A stretch of 64,000 bases of DNA, from assembly GCF_003003795.1 (NCBI RefSeq), contig NZ_PVWK01000140.1, positions 62,001 to 126,000 on the forward strand, given 5' to 3'. Made by a program: the position numbers and the translations under genes. The notes under the pieces were generated by a model. The model was not told the DNA's origin. It did not search any database and saw only the letters and a list, made by a program, of their open reading frames with translations. This DNA is from Stenomitos frigidus ULC18. GTDB taxonomy: Bacteria; Cyanobacteriota; Cyanobacteriia; Leptolyngbyales; Leptolyngbyaceae. This document shows positions 32,520-61,334 of this stretch, piece by piece (positions within the stretch are counted from its first letter, which is position 1; each line of letters opens with the position of its first letter).

Positions 32520-32582
32520 CGTAATCCTTTACTGACAAATATTTCAATGTTGCCCTGCCCTAAATCCTTTGTGAGAGAACCC

Positions 32583-35500: not shown

Positions 35501-36041
35501 CTTAGTTCTGGTCAAGCGGATTACAGCCATTAATACGGTTAACGTTCCTACTTCGGTAGATGATCCCGGTTCCACCAATGACAATGCTGCCAATTGGCCC
35601 ACGCCATTAGATGCTAGCAGCAACATCAGCACCTATCTGCGGGGTGCCTTGAATGGGGGAGTCGTGAGACCGGGGGATGTACTGGAGTACACGATCTATT
35701 TCCTCTCGGCAGGTAGCGTCCCTTCCACAAATATCAACCTATGTGATCTAGTTCCCACCAACAGCACCTTTGTGCCCAATTCTTTTAGTGGTGCCCCAGA
35801 ATCGGGTATTAACCTGACGATCGGTGCTACGTCAACCAACCTGACTAACGTGCCTGACAGCGACGAAGGACAGTTCTTCAACCCTGGTGCCACTCCTTCG
35901 GTTTCCTGTGCGGCTGCCAATACCAACGGAGCGGTGGTCGTAAACGTGGTTAAGAGTCCAGCGAATTTGCCCAACGCCACTGCACCGGGTACGCCGACCA
36001 ACTCCTATGGCTTTATTCGCTTTCGCGCCAGGGTGAACTGA
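32583..36041 (+). CDS. Secreted protein with seven DUF11/DUF7933-like repeats (1152 aa)
   Basis: ATG 32583 is followed by a long signal peptide (LAGLVTGCALVSYAPAVLANA); an ATG at 32547 would add 12 residues. The mature protein contains seven homologous beta-sandwich units of about 125-145 residues. Each opens with (S/N)KxFxPxxIxxGxxSxLTIxxxN, has a central TDNLPxG and the pair TTCxGGxV...C.V.V in the second half, and closes with NTIPAxxLTxxQGxTN. The paired cysteines in each unit suggest one disulfide per repeat. A different C-terminal domain has VRPGDVLEYTIYFLSAG and ends YGFIRFRARVN, like the end of the 23797-26190 protein. It is probably a rod-like surface adhesin or sheath component. The family name is from memory and should be checked. 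Confidence 0.87.
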   Translation: MSRVKSRSLLKWMRRDLSRAMPQLAGLVTGCALVSYAPAVLANAAINKFFSPISVNPGDVSTLTVVLYNSNTTPLTAAAVTDNLPVGMTIAPNPNITNTCGGSVGAIAGSTNASLTGGTVPGRTGFVDGSCQFTVDVVSVVSGNSVNTIPANALTTAQGQTSPQAASATLQVKTLSAISASKAFAPNTIPVAGVSRLTITLNNGNAINVPGTALTDNLPAGVTLAATPSPTTTCGGTVTAVPGAFSVSLAGGNIPASGNCQVTVLVTASSAASFTNSVPAGAITNSRGITNTSAFTATLNAQADAPISKSFSPTSIFQGQPSTLTITINNAQFIALTNAAVTDSLPAGLQIANPPTASTTCTGGTVSATAAGTSVSLSGATIPAASTPVGGTSSRGVCTFRFNVTNVTGVTGTRTNTIPASALTNTQNVTNIAAATANLTINALAGGGSGMTLSKSFGTTAIAPGATSVLTIQITNNAGVAVSSLGVTDNLPTGVVLAATPSASTTCSGGSVTAPAGGGAIVLSGASLNSGSNCRVTVTVTGNTPGVYGNTIPAGGITTAQGNSNASAATANLTILDVVSVSKAFFPSTIVPGGRSRLTLTLSNALTTAITNAAITDNLPTGAQVVTVASSPNPTTTCGGTVTANAGGGSVRLTGGTIPAQVGAVPGICTVSVDVTSPNTGTSTNTISANTLTNDQGRTNFQTSTATLTKTNMTVNLNKAISPVAIQGGDPAVLTVTITNPNAAPLSSLRFVDNMPAGMVVAAVPNATTTCSGGSVSATPNGTSFTVTGVSLTAGQTCTVSVNITNLVAGNTINTIPANGVTTQEGATNASAASATLTTLASAALSKAFTPNSISAGTVATLTINVLNANLFPLTNAALTDNLPAGLTIAPTANASTTCAGGTVTATSGATSVALSGATVPANGLCSVTVSVKASVSGTYTNTLAAGTLSTNEGITNPKPTSDVLTVIADVPALVLVKRITAINTVNVPTSVDDPGSTNDNAANWPTPLDASSNISTYLRGALNGGVVRPGDVLEYTIYFLSAGSVPSTNINLCDLVPTNSTFVPNSFSGAPESGINLTIGATSTNLTNVPDSDEGQFFNPGATPSVSCAAANTNGAVVVNVVKSPANLPNATAPGTPTNSYGFIRFRARVN

Positions 36042-36817: not shown

Positions 36818-39016
36818 CTACCAATCACTCACCGTTCTGCCTAAGTCTTCGATATCGAGTTGATCGGCTGCAAACGCGCGACGAAGTAGATCGGAAGGGA
36901 TGAACTCGTCGTACTTTTGCAGTTTGGGTACTTCCTCTTCGCCTAGCAACTCGTCTGCGGTGAGACGACGACTGCCGATCGATTTGATCTCGTGATAGAG
37001 GCTGACGGTATTGCATTTGCCCATGTTGACCACCAGGAAGTACGGCGATCGCCCGACCACGCCCTTAATTTTTAGCGCCTCTCGACAGTGCAACCGTAAA
37101 AACCGCTCCAGGGTGCGAACGGCGATCGTGCCTGCCCAGGGCAAAATGCAGCAGGCGTTCCCTTCTAGCGGAAAGAGGCGACTGCTCTCAAACCCTTCTT
37201 TCTGCGCGAGTTGACGAGCCGCCGCTAAACGCGCTTTGGCACCAGGTTGCAGGTAGAGATAGTCCGTGTCTTCTAGCAATGCCTGCCGCATGCGCTCTAA
37301 AACGCGCGTGTGAATATTGCCGCTGCTCCCACGCCAGGAAACCGTCGAGGTGCCGATCGCGGGTTTGACTTGAAGTACTTTGCGGCGATTGTTGACTTCG
37401 GTGACTTCCCAGACGCGTCCAGCCAGTGCAAGGCGATCACCGATGGCAGGCGGCACGACCACGGTGCCCAACTCTACCCCATCGCTCCAAACGGCGTATT
37501 CTTCGTTGTCGGGGAAGATGGCATAGAACTTAAAGTTTTTGACAATCCGCTCAGCGGTCATCCCAACAATGAGTCCGTTTTCCTTGGTGCGTTGAATGTG
37601 GTCTAGCTCGATCCAGTGGCGTAGCACCTGGCGAAAATCGTCCTGTGAGATCGAGCGAAAGGGTGGCAGCGTGAGAACCTGTTGTGCGAGGGCAGCGGGA
37701 GACAGTTCACCCAGAGCGACGAGCGTGCTCATGGTTTGCTGATATAGCAGGCTGAATGGGTAGTGTAACGGTGCGATCGGCTCGATCCACTTTTCCTCTA
37801 AATAAAGCTGAATGACTGCAATGCACTGAAGCAGTTGCCACGGAATGAGCTCGGGCAACGATTCACCACCTGTCGGTTTGTCTTCAGCGCAGACAAACCG
37901 CATGTCGGCTGGACTGCCTCGCCGACCCGATCGCCCCAGCCTTTGTAAAAAGCTCGCCACCGATGGCGGGGCTTCTAGCTGAATCACGCGATCGAGTTGT
38001 CCTAAGTCGATGCCCATCTCAAACGTGACGGTTGCCGCCGTCACAGTGGGGCTGGTTGGGTCACGCATGGCGTTTTCGGCAGCTTCTCGGAGCGGTGCTG
38101 CAATGCTGCCGTGGTGGACGTGATACACGTCAGGAAAGCCTTTAGCCTGGGCAATTTGCCGTAGAGAAGCAATCACAGTTTCTGTTTCGGTGCGTCCGTT
38201 GGCAAAGATCAGACACTTGCGGGATTGGCTCTGCTCGAATAAATGGCGCTGATAGGGGTTGAAAGCCGCGTCTCGTGTATCGCCTTTCGCCCGCACAGTG
38301 AGGCTGGATGTGTAGAAATGCTCCAACGCCAGTTGAATGGTGCGCGGCGCAGCCGGTAGATGAGGGGTTGTGACGGAGCGCTGTGTGCCCGATCTCAACC
38401 AGTCTTCTGCCATGCCGTAGTCGCCCAGCGTGGCCGATAGCCCGATGCGTCGCGGGTGGTTTTGCGTTAATTGAGCCAGCCGGGACAGCTGACAGAGAAT
38501 TTGAGCCCCGCGATCGGAGCCAATGAAGGCATGAATTTCGTCAATAATGACAAAGCGGAGTTCGCCAAATAAGCGCTCCAGCTCGTTGTGTTTATTAATC
38601 AGCAGGCTTTCTAGCGATTCAGGCGTAATTTGTAAAATGCCTCTGGGATGCTTCAGCAACTTGTTTTTGTGGCTTTGCACCACGTCGCCATGCCATGCCC
38701 AAACGGGGATGTCTGCTTGCTTAAGCAGGTCGGTGAGGCGATCGAACTGATCATTAATAAGCGCTTTGATGGGGCCAATGTAGAGTGCACCCACGCTGCT
38801 TGGCGGACGATCGTGCAAGAGGGTCAGCACCGGCAGAAAAGCCGCTTCGGTTTTGCCTGATGCCGTTCCAGCTGCGATTAACAGATGTGTATCAGTTTCG
38901 AACAGCACTCGACAGGCTTCTACCTGCACAGGACGCAGATCTGCCCAACCCTGGCTATAAATGTATTCCTGGATGAAGGGAGCGAGACGGTGATAAGGAG
39001 AGGTTAGATCAGGCAC
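36818..39016 (-). CDS. Lhr-type DEAD/DEAH superfamily 2 helicase, BrxHI-like (732 aa)
   Basis: This is an SF2 helicase. The Q-motif-like RPVQVEA, Walker A AAGTASGKTEAAF (Lys55), motif Ia GPIKALINDQ, motif II DEIH (159-162), motif III LSATLGD and motif VI QRLGRSGRRGSP are all present. A large C-terminal region follows, with Lhr-like features (WEVTEVNNRRKVLQV; ILPWAGTIAVRTLERFL). Size and architecture match the Lhr-type helicases called BrxHI in type 2 BREX systems and also found alone. A BrxD-like ATPase is encoded upstream on the same strand, but none of pglX, pglZ, brxC, brxA or brxB is present here. The role could be phage defence or DNA repair. Confidence 0.85.
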   Translation of the reverse strand: MPDLTSPYHRLAPFIQEYIYSQGWADLRPVQVEACRVLFETDTHLLIAAGTASGKTEAAFLPVLTLLHDRPPSSVGALYIGPIKALINDQFDRLTDLLKQADIPVWAWHGDVVQSHKNKLLKHPRGILQITPESLESLLINKHNELERLFGELRFVIIDEIHAFIGSDRGAQILCQLSRLAQLTQNHPRRIGLSATLGDYGMAEDWLRSGTQRSVTTPHLPAAPRTIQLALEHFYTSSLTVRAKGDTRDAAFNPYQRHLFEQSQSRKCLIFANGRTETETVIASLRQIAQAKGFPDVYHVHHGSIAAPLREAAENAMRDPTSPTVTAATVTFEMGIDLGQLDRVIQLEAPPSVASFLQRLGRSGRRGSPADMRFVCAEDKPTGGESLPELIPWQLLQCIAVIQLYLEEKWIEPIAPLHYPFSLLYQQTMSTLVALGELSPAALAQQVLTLPPFRSISQDDFRQVLRHWIELDHIQRTKENGLIVGMTAERIVKNFKFYAIFPDNEEYAVWSDGVELGTVVVPPAIGDRLALAGRVWEVTEVNNRRKVLQVKPAIGTSTVSWRGSSGNIHTRVLERMRQALLEDTDYLYLQPGAKARLAAARQLAQKEGFESSRLFPLEGNACCILPWAGTIAVRTLERFLRLHCREALKIKGVVGRSPYFLVVNMGKCNTVSLYHEIKSIGSRRLTADELLGEEEVPKLQKYDEFIPSDLLRRAFAADQLDIEDLGRTVSDW

Positions 39017-39860: not shown

Positions 39861-41189
39861 TTACACTGTAAATTCAGCGAACTCGCTGGTTTCATCGATC
39901 GACTCATCTTTGTGAGCTTTCGATGGTTGAAAGGTTGAACTTTGCATCACTTGGCTGAGCGTCATTTTAGGATTCTGCTGCAAAACGCTCAAGACACCCA
40001 TAAAGTCGCGCACTACTTCGCCGGGAGTCAGCAAAGCTTCTGCGCCGACTCGGCTAGTGACTGCCCCTAAAAAGTCCTGAAGCTCTCGCTCTGTGAGTCG
40101 TTGCTTGCCATTGTGATGGGTCGCGTGAATTTCTGAGAGGCGCTGCAAGAGCCCCAGAATGTCTTCCTTGCTCAACGGCTCTAGCCAGATCGCTGGCCCC
40201 GAAACATCCTCCGCACTAACGTTGACAAAGCGACTTTTGGCGGTGCGACGCTGCCAGGCTGGGTCACTATAAAGTCCGCGACGTGGATCTTCTAAAAGCT
40301 GGGGTGTGCCGCCGATAATGGTGCCCAAGTGGCTAACTCTGCCTTGCATGGCATCGTTGAACATTGCCAGCAGTTTGTCGTAATTATTTTGACGCGCGAT
40401 CGTGGTGTTGATTTTGTATAGGTGAATGGCCTCGTCCAGGAAGATGAGCAAGCCTTTGTAGCCAATATCAGCGACGAAGCGGGCAAAAAGTTTGATGTAG
40501 TCGTACCAGGTGTCGTCGTCGATAATTACCCGTACACCGAGTGCTGCCCGTGCTTCTGTCTTGGTAGCAAATTCGCCGCGTAGCCAGCGTAACGCGGCTG
40601 TTTTCTTGCTGTCATCGTCTGTGCGATAGCCCGACCAGTAAGTAATGATGACGTTGGCAAATTCAAAGCCATTGACCAGATCGGCAACATCTTTCACAAC
40701 TTCGCGAATTTTGGCTTCTACCTGACCGTCAAAGCCATCGTCGTTCGGCTTTTTCCCGGTTTCCTGGGCAACCTGGGTTTGGATGCCTGCGATCCAACGC
40801 TCCAAAATAATGGTGAGTGCACCACCGTCAGGACGGCTTTTCGTCGCCAGGTTGTGCATTAATTCGCGATAGGTAGCAACGCTAGAGCCGCTGCTGCCGG
40901 CTAAACGACGTTCGGGGGTGAGGTCCGCATCAGCCACGACAAAACCTTGTTCCATCGCATAGTTGCGGAGCAATTGCAGGGTAAAGCTCTTACCAGCTCC
41001 GTAACGACCCACAACGAACCGAAAGGCTGCCCCACCTTCGGCAATATTGTCGAGGTCTTGCATCAGGGCTAGGACTTCCCGTTCACGCCCAACGGCGATA
41101 TGTTCTAGCCCTACACGTGGCACAACGCCAGCGCTGAGGGCATTGATGAGCGCTGTTGAGACTCGTTTAGAAAGTTTGGATGGAGACAT
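39861..41189 (-). CDS. BrxD-like P-loop ATPase (DUF2791 type)
   Basis: The protein has 442 residues from ATG 41189; a GTG at 41207 would add 6. The N-terminal half contains GLEHIAVGREREVLALMQDLDNIAEGGAAFRFVVGRYGAGKSF, with Walker A GRYGAGKS, and ADADLTPERRLAGSSG. Walker B is GLLIFLDEAIHLYK. A sensor-like region NYDKLLAMFNDAMQGRVSHLGTIIGGTPQLLEDPRRGLYSDPAWQRR follows. This arrangement is that of the BREX BrxD/DUF2791 ATPases. It likely works with the BrxHI-like helicase downstream. The nuclease, methylase and phosphatase parts of a full BREX are not in the window. Confidence 0.85.
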   Translation of the reverse strand: MSPSKLSKRVSTALINALSAGVVPRVGLEHIAVGREREVLALMQDLDNIAEGGAAFRFVVGRYGAGKSFTLQLLRNYAMEQGFVVADADLTPERRLAGSSGSSVATYRELMHNLATKSRPDGGALTIILERWIAGIQTQVAQETGKKPNDDGFDGQVEAKIREVVKDVADLVNGFEFANVIITYWSGYRTDDDSKKTAALRWLRGEFATKTEARAALGVRVIIDDDTWYDYIKLFARFVADIGYKGLLIFLDEAIHLYKINTTIARQNNYDKLLAMFNDAMQGRVSHLGTIIGGTPQLLEDPRRGLYSDPAWQRRTAKSRFVNVSAEDVSGPAIWLEPLSKEDILGLLQRLSEIHATHHNGKQRLTERELQDFLGAVTSRVGAEALLTPGEVVRDFMGVLSVLQQNPKMTLSQVMQSSTFQPSKAHKDESIDETSEFAEFTV

Positions 41190-41372
41190 GGGCGTTTCTT
41201 CGTTCACTCAGTGCCAGGTTCATTTGTACCAGGACGATCGCTTATTCACCATAGTAAGACCTGAAAGGCAATACTCTGCGCCCAGTTGCAGGATTCATCA
41301 AGTCAGCTTCACCAGAAATTTCTGATGAGGTTGGGAATCGACAGCGTCATTTCTCATGTCAGACGGTTTAAA

Positions 41373-41554: not shown

Positions 41555-43495
41555 CTAAACAGGGGTCAGTGCTGTAGCAGCCGGAAGACTGGCTGTAGCT
41601 GCGGCTGCGGCTGTGACTGGGGCTGACAGTTTCACAACTAAGGGTGCATCTGTGACGTTGAGCGTAAGTTGAGTGGGTGACGCATAGGCTGCGACTGGGG
41701 CGATCGATTGACTGGGTGCATACGTGGTTGCCTGCCCTAACGCCGTGTTGAAGTTTAACGTCACGCTTTGGCTAACCGATTGATCGGTACTGGGCACTTC
41801 AACCCAAAGTACCAGGTAGAACTCGCCGTTGCTCTTCTGTAGCAGCGTGTGGTGTACGTTTTGAGCTGTGCCGCCGATCGAGTAATTGAGTGCTCCTAGT
41901 GGGGTTGGTGTAGTAACAACTGGCGTGGTTACGGTTGCAGCGGGTTGAGGATCGTTGAGCAAGCCAATCAAATTTTTCAGCACTGTGTAGGCTGGCTTGG
42001 GCGTGCCATCGCTACGGATCAGACCATAGTTGTTTTCGCTGTTGTTTGGATCAGCCTTCTGATCAATCAACTCATACGAGAAGGTGCGGGGTACGCCCAG
42101 ATTGAAGCTCTCTAAAAAGAGACGGGGAATATATTTGCCCTGGACAGCTTCTGTAACGGGTCGATCGGATGTGGCACTGCCAGTCGAATAACCCACTTCG
42201 GTTGCAATCAGCGGTTTGGTGCCAAAGGCCTGCGATCGCAAAGCATAGTCTTTCGCCAGACTACCGTCACCTGGATTTTTGGGGTTGTTGTATGGGTGGA
42301 AGTTGCCATAGTCTACCCACTGGCTCAAGTCGCCCACGGCGCTAGTAGAGGTGGAGTAAACAAACGATGGCCCGATGATGGGGATTTTGGCCGTTGCGGG
42401 GTCTGACTTGAGCGCTATGTAAACATCGCGTGTAAAGTCACGCACATAGCTAATCCAGCCGTTGCCTGTGACGGGTTGCCCATTACGGCTATAGGCAAAA
42501 ATGCTGGAGAACAGGTCAAATTCATTCAGGATTTCGACTGCCTCAACTCCAGTCGCCACGAGATTTTTGACAAAGTTGGCGACGGTATAGCCAGGCGGTT
42601 TGATGTCGTAGGAGGCATCCGGCCCAATGCCAATATTGGGGTCAAGCACCAACGTGGACTTAATCCCTAAACTCCCTAACTCATTAATGCGCTGAATCCA
42701 GGTTGGGTCGCTGCCGCCATCGCGAATATGGCGAACACCGAGATCGAGCAAACTTTGTTTGATGAACGGATAATTACCATACGCGGTGTCGTAGTAGCGA
42801 ATGTGGGTGTTAATGCCGATCGAATCCACAAACGCATTAGCACTTTTGGCGGGTTCACCCGTTGCAAACGCGAGCGTGCTAATACCCTGAAACAGTTGGC
42901 TAGCGGGAACGATCTCTTTCGCCTGTGTGGGGCTAGACCACAGCAATTGCGATGTCGCGCCGCCCGTACTGTCGTAGTACTCCAGCTTGATATCGTAGGC
43001 TTGTCCTGCTGCAAGGGTGATCGCGCCACTGTTTTCTATGAGGTCGTGATCAGTCCAGTTATCAATCAACAGTTGACCATTGACCCATAACCGAATGCCG
43101 TCATCCGATCGGGTGTAAAACGTATAGGCTTCAGAATATTTGGGCTGTACCTGCCCCGTCCAACGCACAGCAAAGTTATCGGCTGGTACGATCGAGTTGG
43201 GTGCATTCGTTCCCCATGTGAAATTGACGTTCGGATCAATTTGCGACCATTTGAGATTGGTAAAATCTTTGCCTTGATAATACTGCGCGCGTAACCCCAA
43301 TTGGTTAACCGCAGGAGCCGCGATCGGTGTCGTGGCAGCAGCGCTGGTAGGGGTGCTGCTAGACGTTAGGCTGCTATTAAGATTAGCCGAGTTGCCAATT
43401 TGTGTGGTGAGGGTGGAAGCGGCGACTGGATTGGCACTGACATTTGTATTCAGAGCAGAGCTGCTTGGCACAGCTACGACGGTTGAATCTGCCAC
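41555..43495 (-). CDS. PA14 domain - clan GH-A-like glycosidase (646 aa)
   Basis: The start is a GTG with AGGGA about 8 nt upstream. The N-terminal 65 residues are Ser/Thr/Ala-rich and show no Sec signal peptide. Residues about 68-205 are a PA14 domain (LRAQYYQGKDFTNLKWSQIDPNVNFTWG; YTFYTRSDDGIRLWVNGQLLIDNW), a carbohydrate-binding beta sandwich. A TIM-barrel-like glycosidase region follows, with VEILNEFDLF (acid/base Glu after Asn) and KPLIATEVGYS (candidate nucleophile Glu), as in clan GH-A (GH5/GH39-like). A C-terminal beta domain ends the protein. Substrate and export route are unknown; type I-like or other non-classical secretion is possible. Confidence 0.82.
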   Translation of the reverse strand: MADSTVVAVPSSSALNTNVSANPVAASTLTTQIGNSANLNSSLTSSSTPTSAAATTPIAAPAVNQLGLRAQYYQGKDFTNLKWSQIDPNVNFTWGTNAPNSIVPADNFAVRWTGQVQPKYSEAYTFYTRSDDGIRLWVNGQLLIDNWTDHDLIENSGAITLAAGQAYDIKLEYYDSTGGATSQLLWSSPTQAKEIVPASQLFQGISTLAFATGEPAKSANAFVDSIGINTHIRYYDTAYGNYPFIKQSLLDLGVRHIRDGGSDPTWIQRINELGSLGIKSTLVLDPNIGIGPDASYDIKPPGYTVANFVKNLVATGVEAVEILNEFDLFSSIFAYSRNGQPVTGNGWISYVRDFTRDVYIALKSDPATAKIPIIGPSFVYSTSTSAVGDLSQWVDYGNFHPYNNPKNPGDGSLAKDYALRSQAFGTKPLIATEVGYSTGSATSDRPVTEAVQGKYIPRLFLESFNLGVPRTFSYELIDQKADPNNSENNYGLIRSDGTPKPAYTVLKNLIGLLNDPQPAATVTTPVVTTPTPLGALNYSIGGTAQNVHHTLLQKSNGEFYLVLWVEVPSTDQSVSQSVTLNFNTALGQATTYAPSQSIAPVAAYASPTQLTLNVTDAPLVVKLSAPVTAAAAATASLPAATALTPV

Positions 43496-44233: not shown

Positions 44234-44253
44234 GATTGCACGATCGTGCAATC
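44234..44253. promoter_or_regulatory. 20-bp perfect palindrome upstream of the radical SAM gene, candidate operator
   Basis: GATTGCACGA (44234-44243) is followed by its exact reverse complement TCGTGCAATC (44244-44253). The dyad ends about 36 bp before the chosen GTG start at 44290. Its length and symmetry fit a dimeric repressor site. Binding is inferred only. Confidence 0.5.
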
Positions 44254-44289
44254 ATTACGATAAAGAGACGTTTAGAGAAGACATTGATT

Positions 44290-45393
44290 GTGACAACCAC
44301 CGTTTCGGAACGTTCCTTGTCATCCGGATCGACCTCGCTTCAAAACGCTTCTGACGCTCCGCGCTTGTGGCTCCCTGAGCGCGTTTTGTTCACGCCTTCA
44401 GCCTTGGAGTTGCCTTGGGGGCAGCAGATTCTGTCGCGTGTAGAGGCACTAAACTTGCCCGTTGAAACCTTGCCGCGCGATCGCCTGACGGGATTGCGGG
44501 GTGAAGATGACCGCGAGACCTACGCGATCGCCAAACGGACTCTTGCCGTTGTCGTTGCTCCACCTAGTCACTTTAAGCTCAGTCCCATTCCACCCTCCGC
44601 AGACTGGCAGTTTCATTTGGCGGAAGGCTGTCCGGCTCACTGTCAGTACTGCTATCTGGCAGGCAGTCTGCAAGGGCCACCGGTGATTCGGGCGTATGCC
44701 AATCTGCCGCAGATTTTAGAGAACCTGGCAGCGTATGAGCGTCCCGGTCAAATAACCTCTTACGAAGTCAGTTGCTACACCGATCCGCTCGGTATTGAGC
44801 ATTTGACGGGTAGCCTTGCCGAATGCATTCGCTACTTTGGTACGCGACCTGATGCTCATCTGCGTTGGGTGTCGAAATTTGATGGAGTCGATCGTCTGCT
44901 TGACCTACCGCACAATGGGCGCACACGCTGCCGGATGAGTGTAAATGCAGCTCCGATCGCTCAAAAGCTTGAGGGTGGCACAGCTTTTGTCGCTAAGCGT
45001 CTGCAGGCACTACGACAACTGGCCTTACCCCGATCTCAGGGTGGCGGTGGTTATCCGATTGGACTGGTGATTGCGCCGATTATGCCGATCGATGATTGGC
45101 AGATTCACTACAGCCAGTTGTTTGATGCCATTGAAGCGGCGATCGACTTCGATTGTGATTTCACCTTTGAACTTATTTCTCACCGCTTTACACCCGGCTC
45201 CAAGGATGCGCTGCTGAGTTGGTACCCCAACACAACCCTTGACCTGGACGAGTCTACCCGTAGCGTCAAACGCAACAAGTTTGGCGGCACGAAATATGTT
45301 TACGCTACCGAAACGATGAAGACCCTGCGTCGCTTTTTTGAGCAAGAAATTGCCCGACGCTTTCCGCAAGCAAGGGTACTTTACTGGACTTAA
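44290..45393 (+). CDS. Spore photoproduct lyase-like radical SAM protein
   Basis: The protein has about 367 residues. The radical SAM cluster motif CPAHCQYCYLAGSLQG (CX3CX2C) binds the 4Fe-4S cluster. The following AYANLPQIL, SCYTDPLGIEHLTGSLAECIRYF and RWVSKFDGVDRLL segments, and the C-terminal region FELISHRFTPGSKDALLSWYPNTTLDLD with RNKFGGTKYVY, match the SplB family. SplB repairs spore photoproduct in DNA. Cyanobacteria make no endospores, so a UV-damage or other radical role is likely but unproved. The start is uncertain: GTG 44290 or TTG 44284, both after GAGAAG. A TTG at 44236 lies inside a palindrome and is unlikely. Confidence 0.87.
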   Translation: MTTTVSERSLSSGSTSLQNASDAPRLWLPERVLFTPSALELPWGQQILSRVEALNLPVETLPRDRLTGLRGEDDRETYAIAKRTLAVVVAPPSHFKLSPIPPSADWQFHLAEGCPAHCQYCYLAGSLQGPPVIRAYANLPQILENLAAYERPGQITSYEVSCYTDPLGIEHLTGSLAECIRYFGTRPDAHLRWVSKFDGVDRLLDLPHNGRTRCRMSVNAAPIAQKLEGGTAFVAKRLQALRQLALPRSQGGGGYPIGLVIAPIMPIDDWQIHYSQLFDAIEAAIDFDCDFTFELISHRFTPGSKDALLSWYPNTTLDLDESTRSVKRNKFGGTKYVYATETMKTLRRFFEQEIARRFPQARVLYWT

Positions 45394-46192: not shown

Positions 46193-47251
46193 TTATTCCG
46201 AAAGTAGTTCGGAGTACACTGCCACTGTTTCAGCGTGAACTCGTGCTACTTTCAGCCAGTCTAGATTTCGGCGCGATCGCGCTTTCCACTCCTTCAACAA
46301 CTCAGAATCACGTAGTAAGGGGGCGATCGCGTCTGCCAATGCTGTGGGCTTGGCGGTTGCTACAAGGATACCTGCTTTGCCACCATCCAACGCTTCTGGA
46401 ATGCCGTCAACATTGCTTGCTACGATCGCGCAACCAGCTCCCCGCGCTTCTGATAGGACTAAACCAAACGGCTCCTGACGCGAGGCGAGGACGAAAATAT
46501 CGGTAGCGTGTAAGTAGCGCTGGGGTTCTGCCTGGTAGCCTTCAAAGTGAATGCGATTTGCAACGGCTGTAGCGTGTGCTTGCGCCTCAAATTCGGCGCG
46601 ATCGGGGCCATTGCCAATTAAATAGAGATGAGCGTCTGGGAACTCTGCTCCCAGACGCTCAAACGCCGTAATCAGGTCTGCAATGCCTTTGCGATGGTAC
46701 ATACCAGCCAGTGTGGCGATCGAGGGATGCTGAAGCGTGACAGGCGGCAATTCCGATAACCGTTCGCGCGGACTGCCCAACGTGCCGTTGCAGACCACTC
46801 GCAGTTTTGCTTGGGGGATGCCTCGCTGAGCCATCGAGTCTGCTACTGACTGACTGACGGCAAGTACGCGGTCGGCTAACCCCATTAAAATGGCGCTGCG
46901 CTGGAATTCGTTGTGGACAGTAGACACCAGTCTGTAGGGTGACTGTCCTCGGAGTGTCCATGCGATTACGATGCCCGTCATCATGTGAGCGTGAACAACG
47001 TCTGGCTGCATGGTTTTCACTAGCGTCCGATACAGCCCAGCCGCCCGCAGCAGATTCAGTGGTTGACGGCGTTGATCGAGCGGCACGTGGGTCACTCCGT
47101 AGCGGCCTAAGAGGCGATCATAGCTCCCTCCCGCAGACGCGACGACCACCTTATGACCAGCTTCTGCCTGCAGGCATGCTAAATCGACTGCCGCATTAAC
47201 GATGCCGTTGCCAATTTCCTGAATGTGGTTGAGGAGGTGCAAAATTCGCAT
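46193..47251 (-). CDS. GT4-family glycosyltransferase
   Basis: The 352-residue GT-B fold enzyme has an N-terminal Rossmann half beginning MRILHLLNHIQEIGNGIVNAAVDLA, HAHMM in the middle, and the C-terminal donor site SRQEPFGLVLSEARGAGCAIVASNVDGIPE (the E-x7-E motif). It should transfer a sugar from a nucleotide donor to a growing cell-surface glycan. It starts 5 bp after the stop of the fusion gene, so it is the last gene of the same transcript. The sugar specificity cannot be read. Confidence 0.93.
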   Translation of the reverse strand: MRILHLLNHIQEIGNGIVNAAVDLACLQAEAGHKVVVASAGGSYDRLLGRYGVTHVPLDQRRQPLNLLRAAGLYRTLVKTMQPDVVHAHMMTGIVIAWTLRGQSPYRLVSTVHNEFQRSAILMGLADRVLAVSQSVADSMAQRGIPQAKLRVVCNGTLGSPRERLSELPPVTLQHPSIATLAGMYHRKGIADLITAFERLGAEFPDAHLYLIGNGPDRAEFEAQAHATAVANRIHFEGYQAEPQRYLHATDIFVLASRQEPFGLVLSEARGAGCAIVASNVDGIPEALDGGKAGILVATAKPTALADAIAPLLRDSELLKEWKARSRRNLDWLKVARVHAETVAVYSELLSE

Positions 47252-47256
47252 GTTGC

Positions 47257-50200
47257 TTAACTGACCTGAAGAGCCTTCTGGTGTGTTAGTTGCGACAGCA
47301 CATGGATGTACTGATCGGTAACGCGATCGACTGAAAATTCCTGGGCACGTTGGCGGAGCACATCAGCGGCGATCGGCGCTTGCAAGGTAGCTAGGATACC
47401 CTCTGCCAGCGCTGCCGGATCGTTTACGGGAACCAGCTTGCCATACTTGCCACCCTCCAAAATTTCGGCGGGTCCACTGGGGCAATCGGTGGAGACGATC
47501 GCGGTGCCTGCTGCCATCGCTTCGGCGACGACATTGCCAAAGCCTTCAAAAATTGAGGACAGTGCAAAAACGCTGGCATGAGCCATGTAGGCATAGGGAT
47601 TTTCGGCAAAGCCCGGTAGCGCTACGTCGTCTTGCAAGCCCAGTGCACGGATCTGTGCCTCCAGCTTTGCCCGATCTTCGCCTTCGCCTAAAATCATCAG
47701 CCGTGCCGATCGCTGTTTGCGCACGATCGCAAACGCCTCTACCAGAGTGGGAAAGTCTTTCTGACTGACCAAACGACCGACACCCAGAATGACGGGTGGT
47801 TCTCCTGTTGCGAACCAGGGATGGTCAACGGGCTGCTGCATTTTTGCAAGCACCGCAGGCGTGACGACCGGGTTATAAATCACTCGAATGGTGTCTGATG
47901 AGATTCCTGTTAACCGAGCAACATCCTCTGCAACACCTTTGGATGCCGCCACGATCGCATCTGCCCACGGGTAAAATAAGCGCACCAATTTGGGTCTGAT
48001 CCGGCCGATCGTGTTGGGTTGATGATCACGAAACTGCTGCGACAGATTCGTTTGCACACACATCACAACTCGAGTGGGTACGCCAGCTAATCGTTGTGCC
48101 CAGGTTGCAGAACTGAGAATATCCAGGGCCGAAAAGAGTACGGACGGTTGTTCCTGTTGTAAGTAGCGACGCAGTGCCAGTGTTTTCGATACCAGCAGTG
48201 GCGATCGTGCCTTCAAGTCCACAATCCGAATCGAGGACGGCACGGTGTCTAGATAGGCTCCTTTGGTCTCTGCCAGTACCAGGTCAATTTTGAAGCCACG
48301 TCCTGCCAAACCTTCTGCAAGATGAAGCATCGCTCGTTCGGCACCACCGCCTTCGAGGGCGGGAAGGAAAACGCTGAGGAAGGGCGTAGAGGGAGAAAAG
48401 GGCATAGGGTGAGAGGGGGAGGGGGGGAGGGGAGATGGCGATGGAGGGGAATTTTTGAATGTTGTATAGCCTTTGGCATTCCAGAAACGCGAAGCGTCTC
48501 CAAAGGAGATTTGCCTTAATTCTGACCGCTGACTGCTGACTACCGCTTGCAACAATTGATCGATCTGTTGCCAAATGTGATTGATGTCAAAGCGTTGCGT
48601 GGCCTCGACTTGGGCAGCTTGGGCAATTGTGTGAACGGGCTCTGGATGATCGCGGCAGTGGGCGATCGCGGCGGCTAGTGCCTGTACATCGCCTGGTGGC
48701 ACTAACCAACCAGTGACGCCTGACTCGACTAATTCCACAGCGCCGCCAGAGGCAGAAGCGATGACAGGTCGCCCACAGAGCATGGCTTCGGCAATGACAC
48801 GCCCAAAGGGCTCGGGTGCTGTAGAGGTGTGAGCCACCACATTACACGCCTGCATTAACGGTACGACATCAGAGCGGAAGCCTAAGAAACGCACTCGGTC
48901 TTGTAGCCCTAACGCGTCTACTTGTGCCTTAAGTGTCTGCACATAGTCCTGTTCACCAAAAAGCGCATCACCAACAAAGAGAGCGACAACATCGGCAGGG
49001 CAGTGAGGCAACGCTTCAAGCAAAATATGCTGTCCTTTCCAGGGAGACAGACGGCTAAAATGCCCTACCACAAAGCGATCGTCTAGCCCAAGCTGTTGCT
49101 TTAACTGGGTTGTCATCCCACTTGCTTGCTTGTATGTGGCTAATTCAAAACCGTTGTAAACCACAGCCGCTAAATCTGCCCGTCCACCCGCGTCAATAAA
49201 TGCATCCCGGCTAGCCTCTGAGGTGGCGATCACTTGACTGGCAAAGCGATTGGCTAAGGTGACAGCAAGACGGCGATTCGTCGGGCTAAAGTGATCGTCG
49301 GAAAGAATGTCGTGCAAATGGAACACCAGCGGACGGCGACTGAACAGGCTTGCCAGTACACCGACCACCAATGCCTTTTGAGTGTTGGCATAAATCAGAT
49401 CGTAGCGACGGCTGAGACGCGCTACTTTCATCGCTATTGGTAGCAGTTGCCCGAGGCTTTGCAATCCCTGCACTAAACCGCTGTCTTTCCGCACCTGAAT
49501 GGGTTCTGTTTCCAAGACCTTGACTGGTACTCCATGTTTGCTCAACGCCGCTTCAAACGGACCATTGGTGAAGAGACAAACCAGGCATCGATCGCGATAC
49601 GGCTGCACAATATCCAAGAGACACAATTCCGCACCTGCCAGTGCACCACTTTGGTCAAGAAAAAGAATCTTCATTGCCGTTGTTGGAGACGCTGGATCGA
49701 GAGGCTGTGTTGCGCTTGCTTTGGGGCTCATGATTATTTGTCTTAGACCATTGACCATTGGCATTTCAATCCATAAATAGGTGAGATACCCTGTGACGAG
49801 TGTGGTTGTCAGCAACAAACCAGCAGTAACTGGATAACCAATACGGTCAAGCAGATGGGTTGTGACGATCAGCTTCAACAGTACCGAGAGACAGAGATAG
49901 TGTGTCAAATAAACCGAATAAGAAGCATCACCCAAAGACGTAAATAGTCGTGCTAGCAATGTCGTTGTTTGGCGGCGCGATCGTTGCAAGTCGAAGGCCG
50001 CTGCACCAAAGACGATCAGCGTTGACGGTATGCCATAAGCAAGAACGGGATTCAGAATGAGCGATCGCTCCGCTTGAGCAAAACCAAAGAGGAGAAAGCA
50101 TGACGTACCTAACAGTAAGAAAAAGGTACTCTTTAGCTTCAAACGGTTCAGTAGCACCAGGCAAGCCGCTAAACAGCCCAGCAGAAACTCAAGATTGTGA

Positions 50201-50892
50201 GCGTTAAACAGAAACTGCAGCAGAAAGTGCTTCTCTGGGTTGATACTACCTGAAAGACTGTCTAAGAAGAGAACAACTGTACCGAAGAGCCATCCCAATA
50301 GCAAATAACGAAATCGTTTGAGCGGTAGTACGATGGCGAGTGCAAAGACGACATAAAAAAGCATTTCATGGGTCAATGACCAGCCCACAATTAAGATAGG
50401 AAGATGCGGCTGGGGCACTAACAATAACGATTGAACAATGACCGCTAAATCACGTTCATGGCCGTAGCCCACTTGAGGCGCTAAGAAGTAGATGGGCAGT
50501 ATGGCTAAGGTGATCAGCCAATAGAGCGGATAAATCCGAATGAGTCGTTTGAGAATAAACGGTTTGAGTCGATTGCGCTGACCAATATCGGCTTGATGAA
50601 CGAAGAAAATAATAAAGCCACTGAGTACAAAGAAAAAATCGACTCCAGCACCACCAAAGGTGAACAAGTTACCTAAAAACGGCTGACCCAGCTTTTCTTG
50701 GCTCAGTTGAGTGATGTGGAACAGCAGCACCAGCAAAGCGGCAACGCCCCGACAGATCTGAATGCCTTCTAAGCGAGGTTTTACCGCTTTTTGCAACGCG
50801 ATCGAGGCTGCTGTAGAACCCACTGCTCCTATCTGATCGGTCACAGCAGTGCTGTCAGCGACGGGTAGATCCTTCCCACTTGATGCCCTCAT
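47257..50892 (-). CDS. Acyltransferase 3 - GT4 - GT4 triple fusion (1211 aa)
   Basis: ATG 50892 overlaps the upstream TGA (ATGA), which fixes the start; an ATG 26 codons earlier lies inside the upstream gene. Residues about 40-385 are a multi-pass acyltransferase 3 domain (LEGIQICRGVAALLVLLFHITQL; FGGAGVDFFFVLSGFIIFF; GWSLTHEMLFYVVFA) that should acylate glycans. After a short linker a GT4 enzyme starts at about 407 (MKILFLDQSGALAGAELCLLDIV) with EPFGRVIAEAMLCGRPVIASASGG. A second GT4 begins at about 840 (VFLPALEGGGAERAMLHLAEGLAGRGF) with EGFGNVVAEAMAAGTAIVSTD. The second linker (about 786-839) is translated repeat DNA. It could be one polypeptide, or a recent merger of genes whose internal starts (ATG 49674; ATG near 48408) are still used. 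Confidence 0.85.
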   Translation of the reverse strand: MRASSGKDLPVADSTAVTDQIGAVGSTAASIALQKAVKPRLEGIQICRGVAALLVLLFHITQLSQEKLGQPFLGNLFTFGGAGVDFFFVLSGFIIFFVHQADIGQRNRLKPFILKRLIRIYPLYWLITLAILPIYFLAPQVGYGHERDLAVIVQSLLLVPQPHLPILIVGWSLTHEMLFYVVFALAIVLPLKRFRYLLLGWLFGTVVLFLDSLSGSINPEKHFLLQFLFNAHNLEFLLGCLAACLVLLNRLKLKSTFFLLLGTSCFLLFGFAQAERSLILNPVLAYGIPSTLIVFGAAAFDLQRSRRQTTTLLARLFTSLGDASYSVYLTHYLCLSVLLKLIVTTHLLDRIGYPVTAGLLLTTTLVTGYLTYLWIEMPMVNGLRQIIMSPKASATQPLDPASPTTAMKILFLDQSGALAGAELCLLDIVQPYRDRCLVCLFTNGPFEAALSKHGVPVKVLETEPIQVRKDSGLVQGLQSLGQLLPIAMKVARLSRRYDLIYANTQKALVVGVLASLFSRRPLVFHLHDILSDDHFSPTNRRLAVTLANRFASQVIATSEASRDAFIDAGGRADLAAVVYNGFELATYKQASGMTTQLKQQLGLDDRFVVGHFSRLSPWKGQHILLEALPHCPADVVALFVGDALFGEQDYVQTLKAQVDALGLQDRVRFLGFRSDVVPLMQACNVVAHTSTAPEPFGRVIAEAMLCGRPVIASASGGAVELVESGVTGWLVPPGDVQALAAAIAHCRDHPEPVHTIAQAAQVEATQRFDINHIWQQIDQLLQAVVSSQRSELRQISFGDASRFWNAKGYTTFKNSPPSPSPLPPSPSHPMPFSPSTPFLSVFLPALEGGGAERAMLHLAEGLAGRGFKIDLVLAETKGAYLDTVPSSIRIVDLKARSPLLVSKTLALRRYLQQEQPSVLFSALDILSSATWAQRLAGVPTRVVMCVQTNLSQQFRDHQPNTIGRIRPKLVRLFYPWADAIVAASKGVAEDVARLTGISSDTIRVIYNPVVTPAVLAKMQQPVDHPWFATGEPPVILGVGRLVSQKDFPTLVEAFAIVRKQRSARLMILGEGEDRAKLEAQIRALGLQDDVALPGFAENPYAYMAHASVFALSSIFEGFGNVVAEAMAAGTAIVSTDCPSGPAEILEGGKYGKLVPVNDPAALAEGILATLQAPIAADVLRQRAQEFSVDRVTDQYIHVLSQLTHQKALQVS
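48376..48537 (-). repeat. Intergenic-type repeats translated as the linker of the fusion protein
   Basis: Read on the minus strand, the segment contains TCAGCAGTCAGCGGTCAG heptamer-like repeats, then CTCCTTTGGAGACGCTTCGCG-type repeat sequence, then a polypyrimidine run of C and T. All three are kinds normally seen between cyanobacterial genes. Here they are in frame and encode SSQRSELRQISFGDASRFW and a Pro/Ser run. Confidence 0.75.
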
Positions 50893-52304
50893 TCGCTTCC
50901 TACCTCCGACAGCAGCTGTTGCTGACGATAGAAGCGTTGAGCTGCCAGTGCGATACCTGCAAAACTCCACATCACGACGCCCGATAACGCCAGCGTCGAA
51001 CTGCCCAAGCCGATTTGGGCAAACACACCCAGGCTGATGGCACGTGACGCGCTGACAAAGGGGTCAGATCGCCCCTCTGTTCCCCGAAACAGGCTAAAAA
51101 ACAGCAGAATCATGCCGCCCAGATAGGGGATAGTCCCGAACCAACCCAGGTTAAACAGCATTGACAGAATGCCGCTATCATTGCTGCCCAGGCTATCGTT
51201 CGCCAGCACAAAGCCCAGCCCGTTGCCTGGAATTTCTGCCAGCGCATCACCCAAAATCTGACCGTATCCTTCCAGGCGCTGGTTGTAGCTCACGTCGTTC
51301 TGCGTATTCGAGAAGGTTTGCAGCCGCGCCGCGATCGCCCCTGAAAATGGCTGCATATTCACGAGCGGAATCACACAGATTGCCATCACCAAAATCGTCA
51401 CAATCAATCGCATCTGCAGTCGTGGCTTGAGCGATGGAATGTACATCACCACGCCCACCACCCACCCCAACCAGGACGATCGCACCAGCGAGAGCAAAAA
51501 CGATAGATAACCGACGCCGACTGCCGCAAACCGCAACATACTCTGACTGCTAAACAGCAACAGGAGTCCCGCCATCATCACGGTGGCAAACGGCCCCGGC
51601 GAATTCATGGTGCTGAAGACGCGCATTCCCAAGGGCTCTGGCGTACCAAACGCGATCGACTTTGAATTAATCAACCAAAAGCGATCCCATTCTGGTGCGA
51701 TGAGATATTGCAGTACCCCGTATGCTCCTGATACCAGCACGCCCCACAAAAACACACGCTCTAAATTCTGGCGATAGGCCGGGTAGCTCCGCCAGTTAAC
51801 GAACAAATGAAAGCCAAACAGAATAGGCGCTAACCAGTTCAGCAGCGGCACCACAACTGCCGTCGGTGGGTACTTAATGAGACCGACCAACATGCCATAG
51901 AGAACTCCCCCCGCCGATAAAATAAACGGCAACCCATCCTGTCTCAGGTAACGGGGAAAATGCTGCACAAAGGTCAACCCCGTCAGCATCATCACCAGAA
52001 ACGGTGCCAGCAACACAGGGCTTGGATCAACCCAACCACTCTGAAAGTCGATCAAGCGCCTGACAAACGGAGTCAAGAACGCGAGCCACCAGGCAAAGCC
52101 CAGATAGAGCACTGGATAGCGCCGAAACAGAAAAAGCCCAACTGCCAGCGCCCCAGCAGGATAGGCCAACCGCAGCAACCCACCCGCATGCGCCAGGATG
52201 CAGAGCAATGAGAAGAACACCAATCCTAACATGGCAGTCCACGCCAGCGTTGGCTGTAAACCAAACTGGGGGCGACGACTGGGAGTGGCGACATCGGTTT
52301 GCAT
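50889..52304 (-). CDS. O-antigen polymerase/ligase family membrane protein (Wzy/WaaL-like)
   Basis: The 471-residue protein has about 11-12 hydrophobic helices and a large extracytoplasmic loop (SKSIAFGTPEPLGMRVFSTMNSPGPFATVMMAG, then SYNQRLEGYGQILGDALAEIPGNGLGFVLANDSLGSNDSGILSMLFNLGWFG). This is the layout of the O-antigen ligase/Wzy family. It should join lipid-linked repeat units or transfer the finished chain to an acceptor. Its TGA overlaps the ATG of the fusion gene, so the two are translationally coupled. Confidence 0.87.
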   Translation of the reverse strand: MQTDVATPSRRPQFGLQPTLAWTAMLGLVFFSLLCILAHAGGLLRLAYPAGALAVGLFLFRRYPVLYLGFAWWLAFLTPFVRRLIDFQSGWVDPSPVLLAPFLVMMLTGLTFVQHFPRYLRQDGLPFILSAGGVLYGMLVGLIKYPPTAVVVPLLNWLAPILFGFHLFVNWRSYPAYRQNLERVFLWGVLVSGAYGVLQYLIAPEWDRFWLINSKSIAFGTPEPLGMRVFSTMNSPGPFATVMMAGLLLLFSSQSMLRFAAVGVGYLSFLLSLVRSSWLGWVVGVVMYIPSLKPRLQMRLIVTILVMAICVIPLVNMQPFSGAIAARLQTFSNTQNDVSYNQRLEGYGQILGDALAEIPGNGLGFVLANDSLGSNDSGILSMLFNLGWFGTIPYLGGMILLFFSLFRGTEGRSDPFVSASRAISLGVFAQIGLGSSTLALSGVVMWSFAGIALAAQRFYRQQQLLSEVGSE

Positions 52305-52385
52305 CGGGAAAAGTTGAAGGGGACAGGCTAAAGGCTAAAGGAGTTTTTAGTTTTTAGAAGAAAGCTGACTGCTGACCGCTCAATT

Positions 52386-52440
52386 AATTCAAAACTCATA
52401 ATTCAAAACTCAAAACTCAAAATTGATCATTCAAAACTCA
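52386..52440. repeat. Short AATTCAAAACTC-type repeats
   Basis: About four imperfect copies of (A)ATTCAAAACTC lie between the ligase and GT2 genes. Related ACTCAAAAC runs occur at about 1850-1866, and the reverse-complement type GTTTTGAGTT at about 61258-61280. These are short tandemly repeated repetitive sequences typical of cyanobacterial spacers. Confidence 0.6.
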
Positions 52441-53253
52441 TTTCCTGCCTTGTCGCCTCGCTTTCCAATCAATTTCGTACAGCTTGGCTTCCTTCAAAAA
52501 GATATAAAAACTCCACAATCCAGAGAGGGTAAAACCCGCCATGCCCTGACGAAACATGCCGTACCAGAGGTACTGCTGTACAAATTTAGCCAAGGGTTTG
52601 AGCACCAGGCGGAGCAGGCTAAAGCGTGTGCCGGTACGGTGAGCCTGCTGGGCATCCAAGTCGGTGTAGCGATTGAAGCGAATCACTAAATCGCTGATGT
52701 CGCGGAACCCGTAATGCCAGATCACGCCTGGCAGTTTCACCACGGGAGCATCTTTGATATCGGGGCCTTCATGCACCAGCACGTCTTTAATGCGAAACAC
52801 GGTTTTGTTGTAAAGACGTGTGTGGTACTCCGGTCGTGTGTCGAGCCAGGTGTCCCAAAAGTCGCCGATGCGAACAGCAGAGAAGGCGTTGGCTGTGATC
52901 GTGGGTGCCTGCTTCCATTCCAGCAATGCATTTGACAGACGATTGTCAATCACCTCATCCGCATCAATGAAGAAAATCCAATCGTGCTGTGCCTTGTCAG
53001 CACCAAAATTACGCTGATTGGAGTAGCCCGACCAGGGATTGTGATAAACCTGACAGCCGAGATCGTGAGCGATCTGAACAGTGGCATCCTCGCTACCACT
53101 GTCTACAACCACAATTTCATCAGCAAACGGTTTGCACGATCGAATGGCGTTGGCGATACATTCCTCTTCGTTCTGCGCAATGATGACGATCGACAACTGT
53201 CTTAACGGTATTGCGTTCACTGATTTAGATGGTGATGCTTGGCTCACTTGCAT
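52438..53253 (-). CDS. GT2 glycosyltransferase, WaaE/KdtX-like
   Basis: The 271-residue GT-A fold enzyme starts its catalytic domain with LSIVIIAQNEEECIANAIRSCKPFADEIVVVDSGSEDATVQIA. The metal-binding FIDADEVID and the acceptor segment ARIGDFWDTWLDTRPEYHTRLYN-like region (VRIGDFW...) fit the WaaE family of LPS-core beta-glucosyltransferases. The C-terminus has a membrane-associating hydrophobic patch (LWYGMFRQGMAGFTLSGLWSFYIFLKEAKLYE). It probably acts at the inner membrane in the cluster's glycan pathway. Confidence 0.9.
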   Translation of the reverse strand: MQVSQASPSKSVNAIPLRQLSIVIIAQNEEECIANAIRSCKPFADEIVVVDSGSEDATVQIAHDLGCQVYHNPWSGYSNQRNFGADKAQHDWIFFIDADEVIDNRLSNALLEWKQAPTITANAFSAVRIGDFWDTWLDTRPEYHTRLYNKTVFRIKDVLVHEGPDIKDAPVVKLPGVIWHYGFRDISDLVIRFNRYTDLDAQQAHRTGTRFSLLRLVLKPLAKFVQQYLWYGMFRQGMAGFTLSGLWSFYIFLKEAKLYEIDWKARRQGRK

Positions 53254-61244: not shown

Positions 61245-61294
61245 AATGGGGAAAGCTTTGAGTTTTAAGTTTTGAGTTAACGCTGGTTTTTACC

Positions 61295-61334
61295 TTCTGA
61301 CTTCTGACTTCTGACTTCTGACTTCTGACTTCTA
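61295..61334. repeat. Heptanucleotide tandem repeat (TTCTGAC)n
   Basis: Five consecutive copies of TTCTGAC run from 61295 to 61329, followed by a partial copy. It is a classic short tandemly repeated sequence of cyanobacterial spacers, lying just beyond the stop of the minus-strand GT4 gene. Confidence 0.85.

Follow-up and report, generated by a model that had tools for sequence, protein, structure and literature searches.

Fusion of an AT3-type acyltransferase domain to a HepE-family glycosyltransferase in a polysaccharide operon of Stenomitos frigidus and related cyanobacteria

An open reading frame with three polysaccharide enzyme domains

The stretch of DNA analyzed here (the window) comprises 64,000 nucleotides of Stenomitos frigidus ULC18 (contig NZ_PVWK01000140.1, positions 62,001 to 126,000), from a genome assembly of 7.0 Mb in 167 contigs. 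On its minus strand, an uninterrupted open reading frame (ORF) of 1211 residues (47257-50892) runs from an ATG at 50892 to a stop at 47257 and encodes an acyltransferase domain (AT3, PF01757) followed by a GT4 glycosyltransferase of HepE type (GT4-1) and a second GT4 glycosyltransferase (GT4-2), while the plus strand of the same interval has many stops. The AT3 domain (residues 43-372, 49777-50766) is matched by the Pfam family Acyl_transf_3 with 92.4 bits against a cut-off of 31, and each of the two GT4 units that follow is matched by Pfam in two stretches, the best being Glycos_transf_1 at residues 596-760 and Glyco_trans_1_4 at residues 1033-1171. Between AT3 and GT4-1 (residues 407-790, 48523-49674) lies a short linker with low model confidence (linker 1, residues about 388-406, 49675-49731), and GT4-1 opens with an ATG (residue 407, 49672-49674) that is its ancestral stand-alone start. 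GT4-2 (residues 830-1211, 47260-48405) likewise opens with an ATG (residue 830, 48403-48405), and is preceded by a stretch of intergenic-type repeat DNA that is read in frame (linker 2, residues about 791-829, 48406-48522). The 1211-residue frame and the ORF before it (50889-52304, minus strand) share the sequence ATGA (50889-50892), in which the start codon of the former overlaps the stop codon of the latter. Three strong domains in an open frame of 3.6 kb are far beyond chance; the stop-free stretch between GT4-1 and GT4-2 is, by contrast, close to chance. An earlier reading of this locus, made from the sequence only, had proposed that three polysaccharide enzymes share one frame of 1211 residues, and both the frame and its Pfam domains bear this out.

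Properties of the acyltransferase and glycosyltransferase domains

The AT3 domain has an intact R-X10-H motif in its first transmembrane segment (residue 48) and an intact RXXR motif in its first cytoplasmic loop (RLIR, residue 116), and R19, H30, R87 and R90 (in the numbering of the aligned sequences) are invariant in all 11 AT3 rows. In an AlphaFold model (mean predicted local distance difference test score, pLDDT, 70), the domain consists of ten helices, from residues 13-39 to residues 324-358, with a short helix (residues 120-127) between helices 3 and 4 that is in line with the re-entrant loop described in the accessible part of an AT3 model paper (PMC9833829); simple hydropathy yields 11 segments, of which one is doubtful. 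The best fold matches of the AT3 model are HGSNAT (Z 16.7, 290 residues aligned, root-mean-square deviation [rmsd] 5.1) and GWT1 (Z 11.1), the remaining rows being below 7 and the next, an unrelated protein, at 6.7; HGSNAT was retrieved only by the second aligner. Foldseek searches of the PDB and of a viral library with the same model returned nothing at E<=0.001, and the PDB search gave no match below E 0.2. No SGNH domain after an eleventh helix was found by Pfam, and the chain passes to GT4-1 after helix 10. Because ten helices are predicted without an eleventh, as for Oac, of which the N- and C-termini are reported to be cytoplasmic (PMC9833829, accessible part), the C-terminus of AT3 is predicted to be cytoplasmic, and GT4-1 should lie on the cytoplasmic face of the membrane. 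The sequence-only reading had placed cytoplasmic transferases beside a membrane acyltransferase, and for GT4-1 the topology model supports that arrangement.

The E-X7-E motif of GT4 glycosyltransferases occurs in both units, as EPFGRVIAE in GT4-1 and EGFGNVVAE in GT4-2. GT4-1 matches Alr3699/HepE over nearly its full length (507 bits, with 1-376 of 379 residues aligned) and is 58-61% identical to the HepE structures; its model has the same GT-B fold as HepE (Z 49.8, rmsd 1.5, 358 residues aligned, 60% identity). The C-terminal half of GT4-1 in model m4c724c96b221 was built on fewer alignment rows, as alignment A1 in several rows set the C-terminal half of GT4-1 against GT4-2. By sequence and model, GT4-1 is assigned to the HepE/Alr3699 family; crystals of HepE contain UDP, UDP-glucose, or UDP and glucose according to the titles of the PDB entries. 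GT4-2 is a GT4 enzyme with more distant solved relatives (best E 2.7e-17). All glycosyltransferase matches listed fall under the curated cut-offs of named NCBIfam equivalogs such as HpsP or HpsO.

Distribution and origin of the AT3-GT4-1 fusion

Homologs were surveyed in a sample of the class, a plasmid collection and one protein scan of genome contigs that reaches close relatives only; those named, all cyanobacteria, are Stenomitos rutilans, Tildeniella nuda, Leptolyngbya FACHB-321, Lyngbya HA4199-MV5, the bin ES-bin-22 and Centralia_MAG_596. AT3 and GT4-1 are encoded in a single open frame in all eight genomes of the clade, seven of one genus (g1) and one of a sister genus in the same family (g10), such that the AT3-GT4 architecture is conserved in the orthologs of the clade (8/8). 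Genus g1 contributes five complete two-domain frames of 788-829 residues in addition to the window and ES-bin-22, the latter being a fragment at a contig edge, the frame of which begins inside AT3. Only three of the eight orthologs (the window, ES-bin-22 and G021, a genome of the other genus, in three contigs, with a frame of 1280 residues) have the full AT3-GT4-GT4 order in one frame, and a conserved three-domain architecture was rejected. The fusion and the rarity of its domain order held, and this order recurs in two further genomes; of the proposed three-way fusion, the AT3-GT4-1 part is conserved throughout the clade, but the third unit is attached in 3/8 through unrelated linkers. Within the family, the AT3 part was matched in 10 of 42 genomes and is fused in eight of them; at the level of the order, the sample consists of the same 42 genomes. 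Across the class, the AT3 part at E<=1e-40 matched 28 of 388 genomes, with frames of more than 500 residues solely in the same eight; the AT3-GT4-1 query at the same threshold matched 149 of 388, mostly, among the matches listed, as stand-alone frames near 390 residues that match the GT4 part. In the plasmid collection the AT3-GT4 pair gave 24 matching records, none covering more than 80% of the query.

AT3 is encoded directly before GT4-1 as a separate gene in three genomes of family f25, one of f18 and four inspected genomes of f13. An ATGA overlap links the two separate genes in five genomes, namely the single f18 genome and the four inspected f13 genomes, and the f25 genomes have stops within the AT3/GT4-1 spacers. 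Separate neighbors elsewhere in the class, often overlapping by ATGA, imply that AT3 and GT4-1 were neighbors before they became one gene. Within the fused clade, linker 1 has 27-37 residues and differs in length by whole codons alone, remaining in frame in 8/8 genomes. The start methionine of GT4-1, the ATG at 49674 in the window, is kept in six of the eight genomes and is gone in two, replaced by CTA in Lyngbya HA4199-MV5 and by AGC in FACHB-321. In a tree of GT4-1 plus GT4-2 (14 rows), the eight AT3-fused genomes cluster together with support 92/91. Conservation of the join in 8/8 genomes and loss of the internal start in 2/8 mean that the AT3-GT4 join is real, and on this comparison of sequences AT3-GT4-1 is an evolved fusion. 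For AT3-GT4-1, a frame produced by sequencing error alone, which the sequence-only reading had named among its refuting conditions, was rejected on the basis of the fusion in 8/8 genomes.

Attachment of the second glycosyltransferase

GT4-1 and GT4-2 are joined in three of the eight AT3-fused genomes and also in G031, where they form one frame of 791 residues without AT3 (L084:3628-6000) with another pyrimidine-rich linker. GT4-2 is a gene of its own in five of the seven g1 genomes, separated from GT4-1 by at least one stop or lying in a different frame, and the spacer that matches linker 2 is broken by stops in 5/8 genomes. On the 14-row tree the joined state requires four changes (window, ES-bin-22, G021 and G031), and the sister of the window is Tildeniella (support 93/94), in which the two GT4 genes are not joined, there being both a stop and a change of frame. 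The linkers of the joined genomes differ from one another. In the window, linker 2 contains a GTCAGC-type short repeat (48522-48541) that has many further copies across the genome and a dispersed repeat element (48453-48510) that occurs at 13 other genomic places (E<1e-4), followed by a nearly pure C-rich pyrimidine tract that reaches the ATG at 48405. When the window is aligned with Tildeniella, approximately 40 nucleotides that hold the Tildeniella stop are absent from the window, next to the GTCAGC repeats; this segment may have been lost by slippage. Linker 2 has a pLDDT of about 25-31 in the AlphaFold model and is predicted to be disordered. Heptamer tandem repeats (TCAAAAC and CTTCTGA) occur in other spacers of the same cluster (52385-52441 and 61294-61333), which agrees with linker 2 being spacer DNA. 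The idea that the protein has a conserved element in linker 2 was rejected on the grounds of unlike linkers, repeat DNA and predicted disorder.

The frequency of joins was compared with chance in a non-exhaustive set of 25 pairs picked by coordinates (same strand, GT4-1 first, close together), of which G024 and G174 were dropped with an unrecognized GT4-1 tail; by eye, stops precede the GT4-2 start in both. Four of the 23 computed pairs are joined, versus 1.42 expected from dinucleotide shuffles with random frame (P for four or more, 0.042), an excess inflated by the inclusion of the window, which was selected for its join. For the window and ES-bin-22, about 31% of shuffled spacers of the same composition are free of stops. 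GT4-2 retains an ATG of its own in 9/9 genomes, namely the eight AT3-fused genomes and G031. In the few strains concerned, the spacer between the two GT4 genes probably lost its stop codons by chance, attaching GT4-2 to the chain, and the third domain is probably incidental. As the 48405 start is kept in all eight AT3-fused genomes, GT4-2 is probably also made as a free enzyme.

Alternative explanations

The alternative in which the three enzymes are a selected assembly line, re-formed repeatedly because linking both GT4 units is beneficial, would account for the full order in three genomes of two genera, for the joining of the GT4 units without AT3 in G031, and for four changes on the tree with more joins than expected. 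It is nevertheless unlikely, given that the linkers are all different and intergenic in character, that in Tildeniella, the sister of the window, a stop and a frame change separate the two GT4 units, that the GT4-2 ATG persists in all eight AT3-fused genomes as well as in G031, and that one of the four joins was picked for being joined. An assembly or sequencing error could also explain why the window has no stop between its two GT4 units, since linker 2 is built from repeats and a pyrimidine tract rich in C, a kind of DNA prone to indel errors; this is very improbable when ES-bin-22 and G021, the latter in three contigs, share the join with different linkers, and when a stop-free spacer of this composition arises in nearly a third of shuffles. 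Only slightly less improbable is that no single protein is made from the frame, with both GT4 units translated from internal ATGs and the AT3 tail clipped or irrelevant. Both ancestral starts are ATG in the window, and the GT4-1 ATG is kept in 6/8 genomes, but without a stop translation of AT3 must continue into GT4, the GT4-1 ATG is lost in 2/8, and linker 1 is in frame in 8/8.

Several observations weigh against the interpretation that a two-domain AT3-GT4-1 protein evolved as a unit with GT4-2 attached by chance. The codon signature of linker 1 is weak, with differences of 0.46, 0.37 and 0.63 at codon positions 1, 2 and 3, compared to 0.21, 0.12 and 0.52 in GT4-1, and it is favored by the protein-guided alignment of the linker. 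FACHB-321 has a GTG two codons past the lost methionine of GT4-1 and Lyngbya HA4199-MV5 has an ATG 14 codons before it, such that in these two genomes GT4-1 may have an alternative internal start. The open linker of 300 nucleotides in G021 is improbable under shuffling (0.043), and GT4-GT4 joins are in weak but not zero excess over chance (P 0.042); given both, there may be some selection for the third domain.

Comparison with known systems

The architecture can be compared with known systems on the basis of the accessible parts of PMC9558356, PMC7448272, PMC9833829, PMC3584217, PMC5792488, PMC12052932 and PMC2211374. GT4-1 resembles HepE/Alr3699 of Anabaena PCC 7120 (PDB 4xso, 4xsp, 4xsr and 4xsu) along its whole length, but HepE and, among the matches listed, most of its relatives in the class are encoded alone, by genes of about 390 residues, whereas here the enzyme makes up either the middle or the C-terminal portion of an AT3 protein. 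The common forms of AT3, as described in the accessible parts of the AT3 papers, are stand-alone, AT3-SGNH and AT3-alanine racemase, with SGNH and alanine racemase named as the main fusion partners. Stand-alone O-acyltransferases such as Oac and WbaK likewise have PF01757, ten helices, R-X10-H and RXXR, but the AT3 of the window bears a cytoplasmic GT4 at its C-terminus. In the AT3-SGNH proteins OafA, OafB and OatA, a single chain also joins AT3 to a catalytic partner at its C-terminus; their partner is outside the cell after an eleventh helix, whereas in the window protein the partner is a GT4, predicted to be inside, without that helix. AT3-alanine racemase is the second most common AT3 fusion according to the accessible part of PMC9558356, and VanT similarly carries a C-terminal enzyme on AT3, but the partner is a racemase rather than a glycosyltransferase. 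The capsule polymerase Cps3D (PDB 8qoy, a multienzyme by its title) carries several polysaccharide enzymes on one chain, part of which matches GT4-2 by sequence; it differs in that the glycosyltransferase part alone was matched by sequence and no AT3 match was seen. No AT3-glycosyltransferase fusion was recognized in the literature from titles and abstracts, with most subscription journals outside the coverage. On these comparisons, AT3-HepE is a new architecture, present in a few related filamentous cyanobacteria.

Neighboring genes

In its operon, the 1211-residue frame is accompanied by further genes for GT4, GT2 and pyruvyl-transferase enzymes, an arrangement that is syntenic among relatives. 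The syntenic ORF immediately upstream (50889-52304, minus strand) is presumably polymerase/ligase-like and gave no match to Pfam or NCBIfam; the syntenic gene immediately downstream (46193-47251, minus strand) encodes a GT4. In the f18 and f25 genomes, GT4-1 and GT4-2 flank a relative of the C-terminal part of another ORF of the window (41555-43495), without its PA14 part (L085:5797-6993, L086:2325-3512, L087:2372-3547 and L088:2373-3557), and in G021 a relative of the same ORF is split across two frames (L089:3745-5383) and appears broken. Beside the cluster, 44236-45393 (plus strand) encodes a spore photoproduct lyase family protein (PF20903, 297 bits), and a similar ORF is near the cluster in several relatives. 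Two neighboring ORFs on the minus strand, 36818-39016 and 39861-41207, were matched by PADLOC to SngC (820 bits) and SngB (587 bits). They contain BrxH-like and BrxC/D-like domains and are a candidate SngABC-type phage defence pair adjoining the polysaccharide genes, with SngA not identified. The ORF at 32547-36041 (plus strand) encodes 1164 residues with seven DUF7933 stretches.

Proposed function and implications

The evolved unit is probably an AT3-HepE protein of two domains that functions in an exopolysaccharide operon, with an incidental third domain in the window, and that would couple sugar addition at the inner leaflet to O-acylation. As HepE binds UDP-glucose, GT4-1 may add a hexose to a lipid-linked glycan at the inner leaflet, and the tethered AT3 would take acyl groups from acyl-CoA and transfer them through the membrane to that glycan, the tether holding sugar addition and O-acylation at one site in a 1:1 ratio. 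The fusion stems from two neighboring genes that often overlap by ATGA. In the window, with the GT4-1 stop and the spacer stops gone, ribosomes would read through the repeat DNA of the linker, predicted to be disordered, and on into GT4-2; because no stop intervenes, the chain that includes GT4-2 must be made if AT3 is translated, although nothing suggests a need for this join. The proposal that fusion fixes the ratio of the enzymes is thus arguable for AT3 and GT4-1 but not for GT4-2, which is attached in 3/8 genomes and has an ATG of its own. A more ambitious model is unlikely: one polypeptide would add a sugar inside the cell and drive O-acylation of the same lipid-linked repeat through the membrane, such that acylation would be set during assembly, before export, and GT4-2 in some strains would make the chain a three-step assembly line.

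The independent GT4-GT4 joins indicate that spacers of repeat DNA can convert neighbors in an operon into fusion proteins. A cytoplasmic glycosyltransferase partner would tie acylation by AT3 physically to the assembly of the glycan, and a natural AT3-GT4 chain makes testable the question of where AT3 proteins meet their acceptor. If the product of the GT4 is indeed the substrate of the AT3, the acceptor of the AT3 in this fusion can be named.

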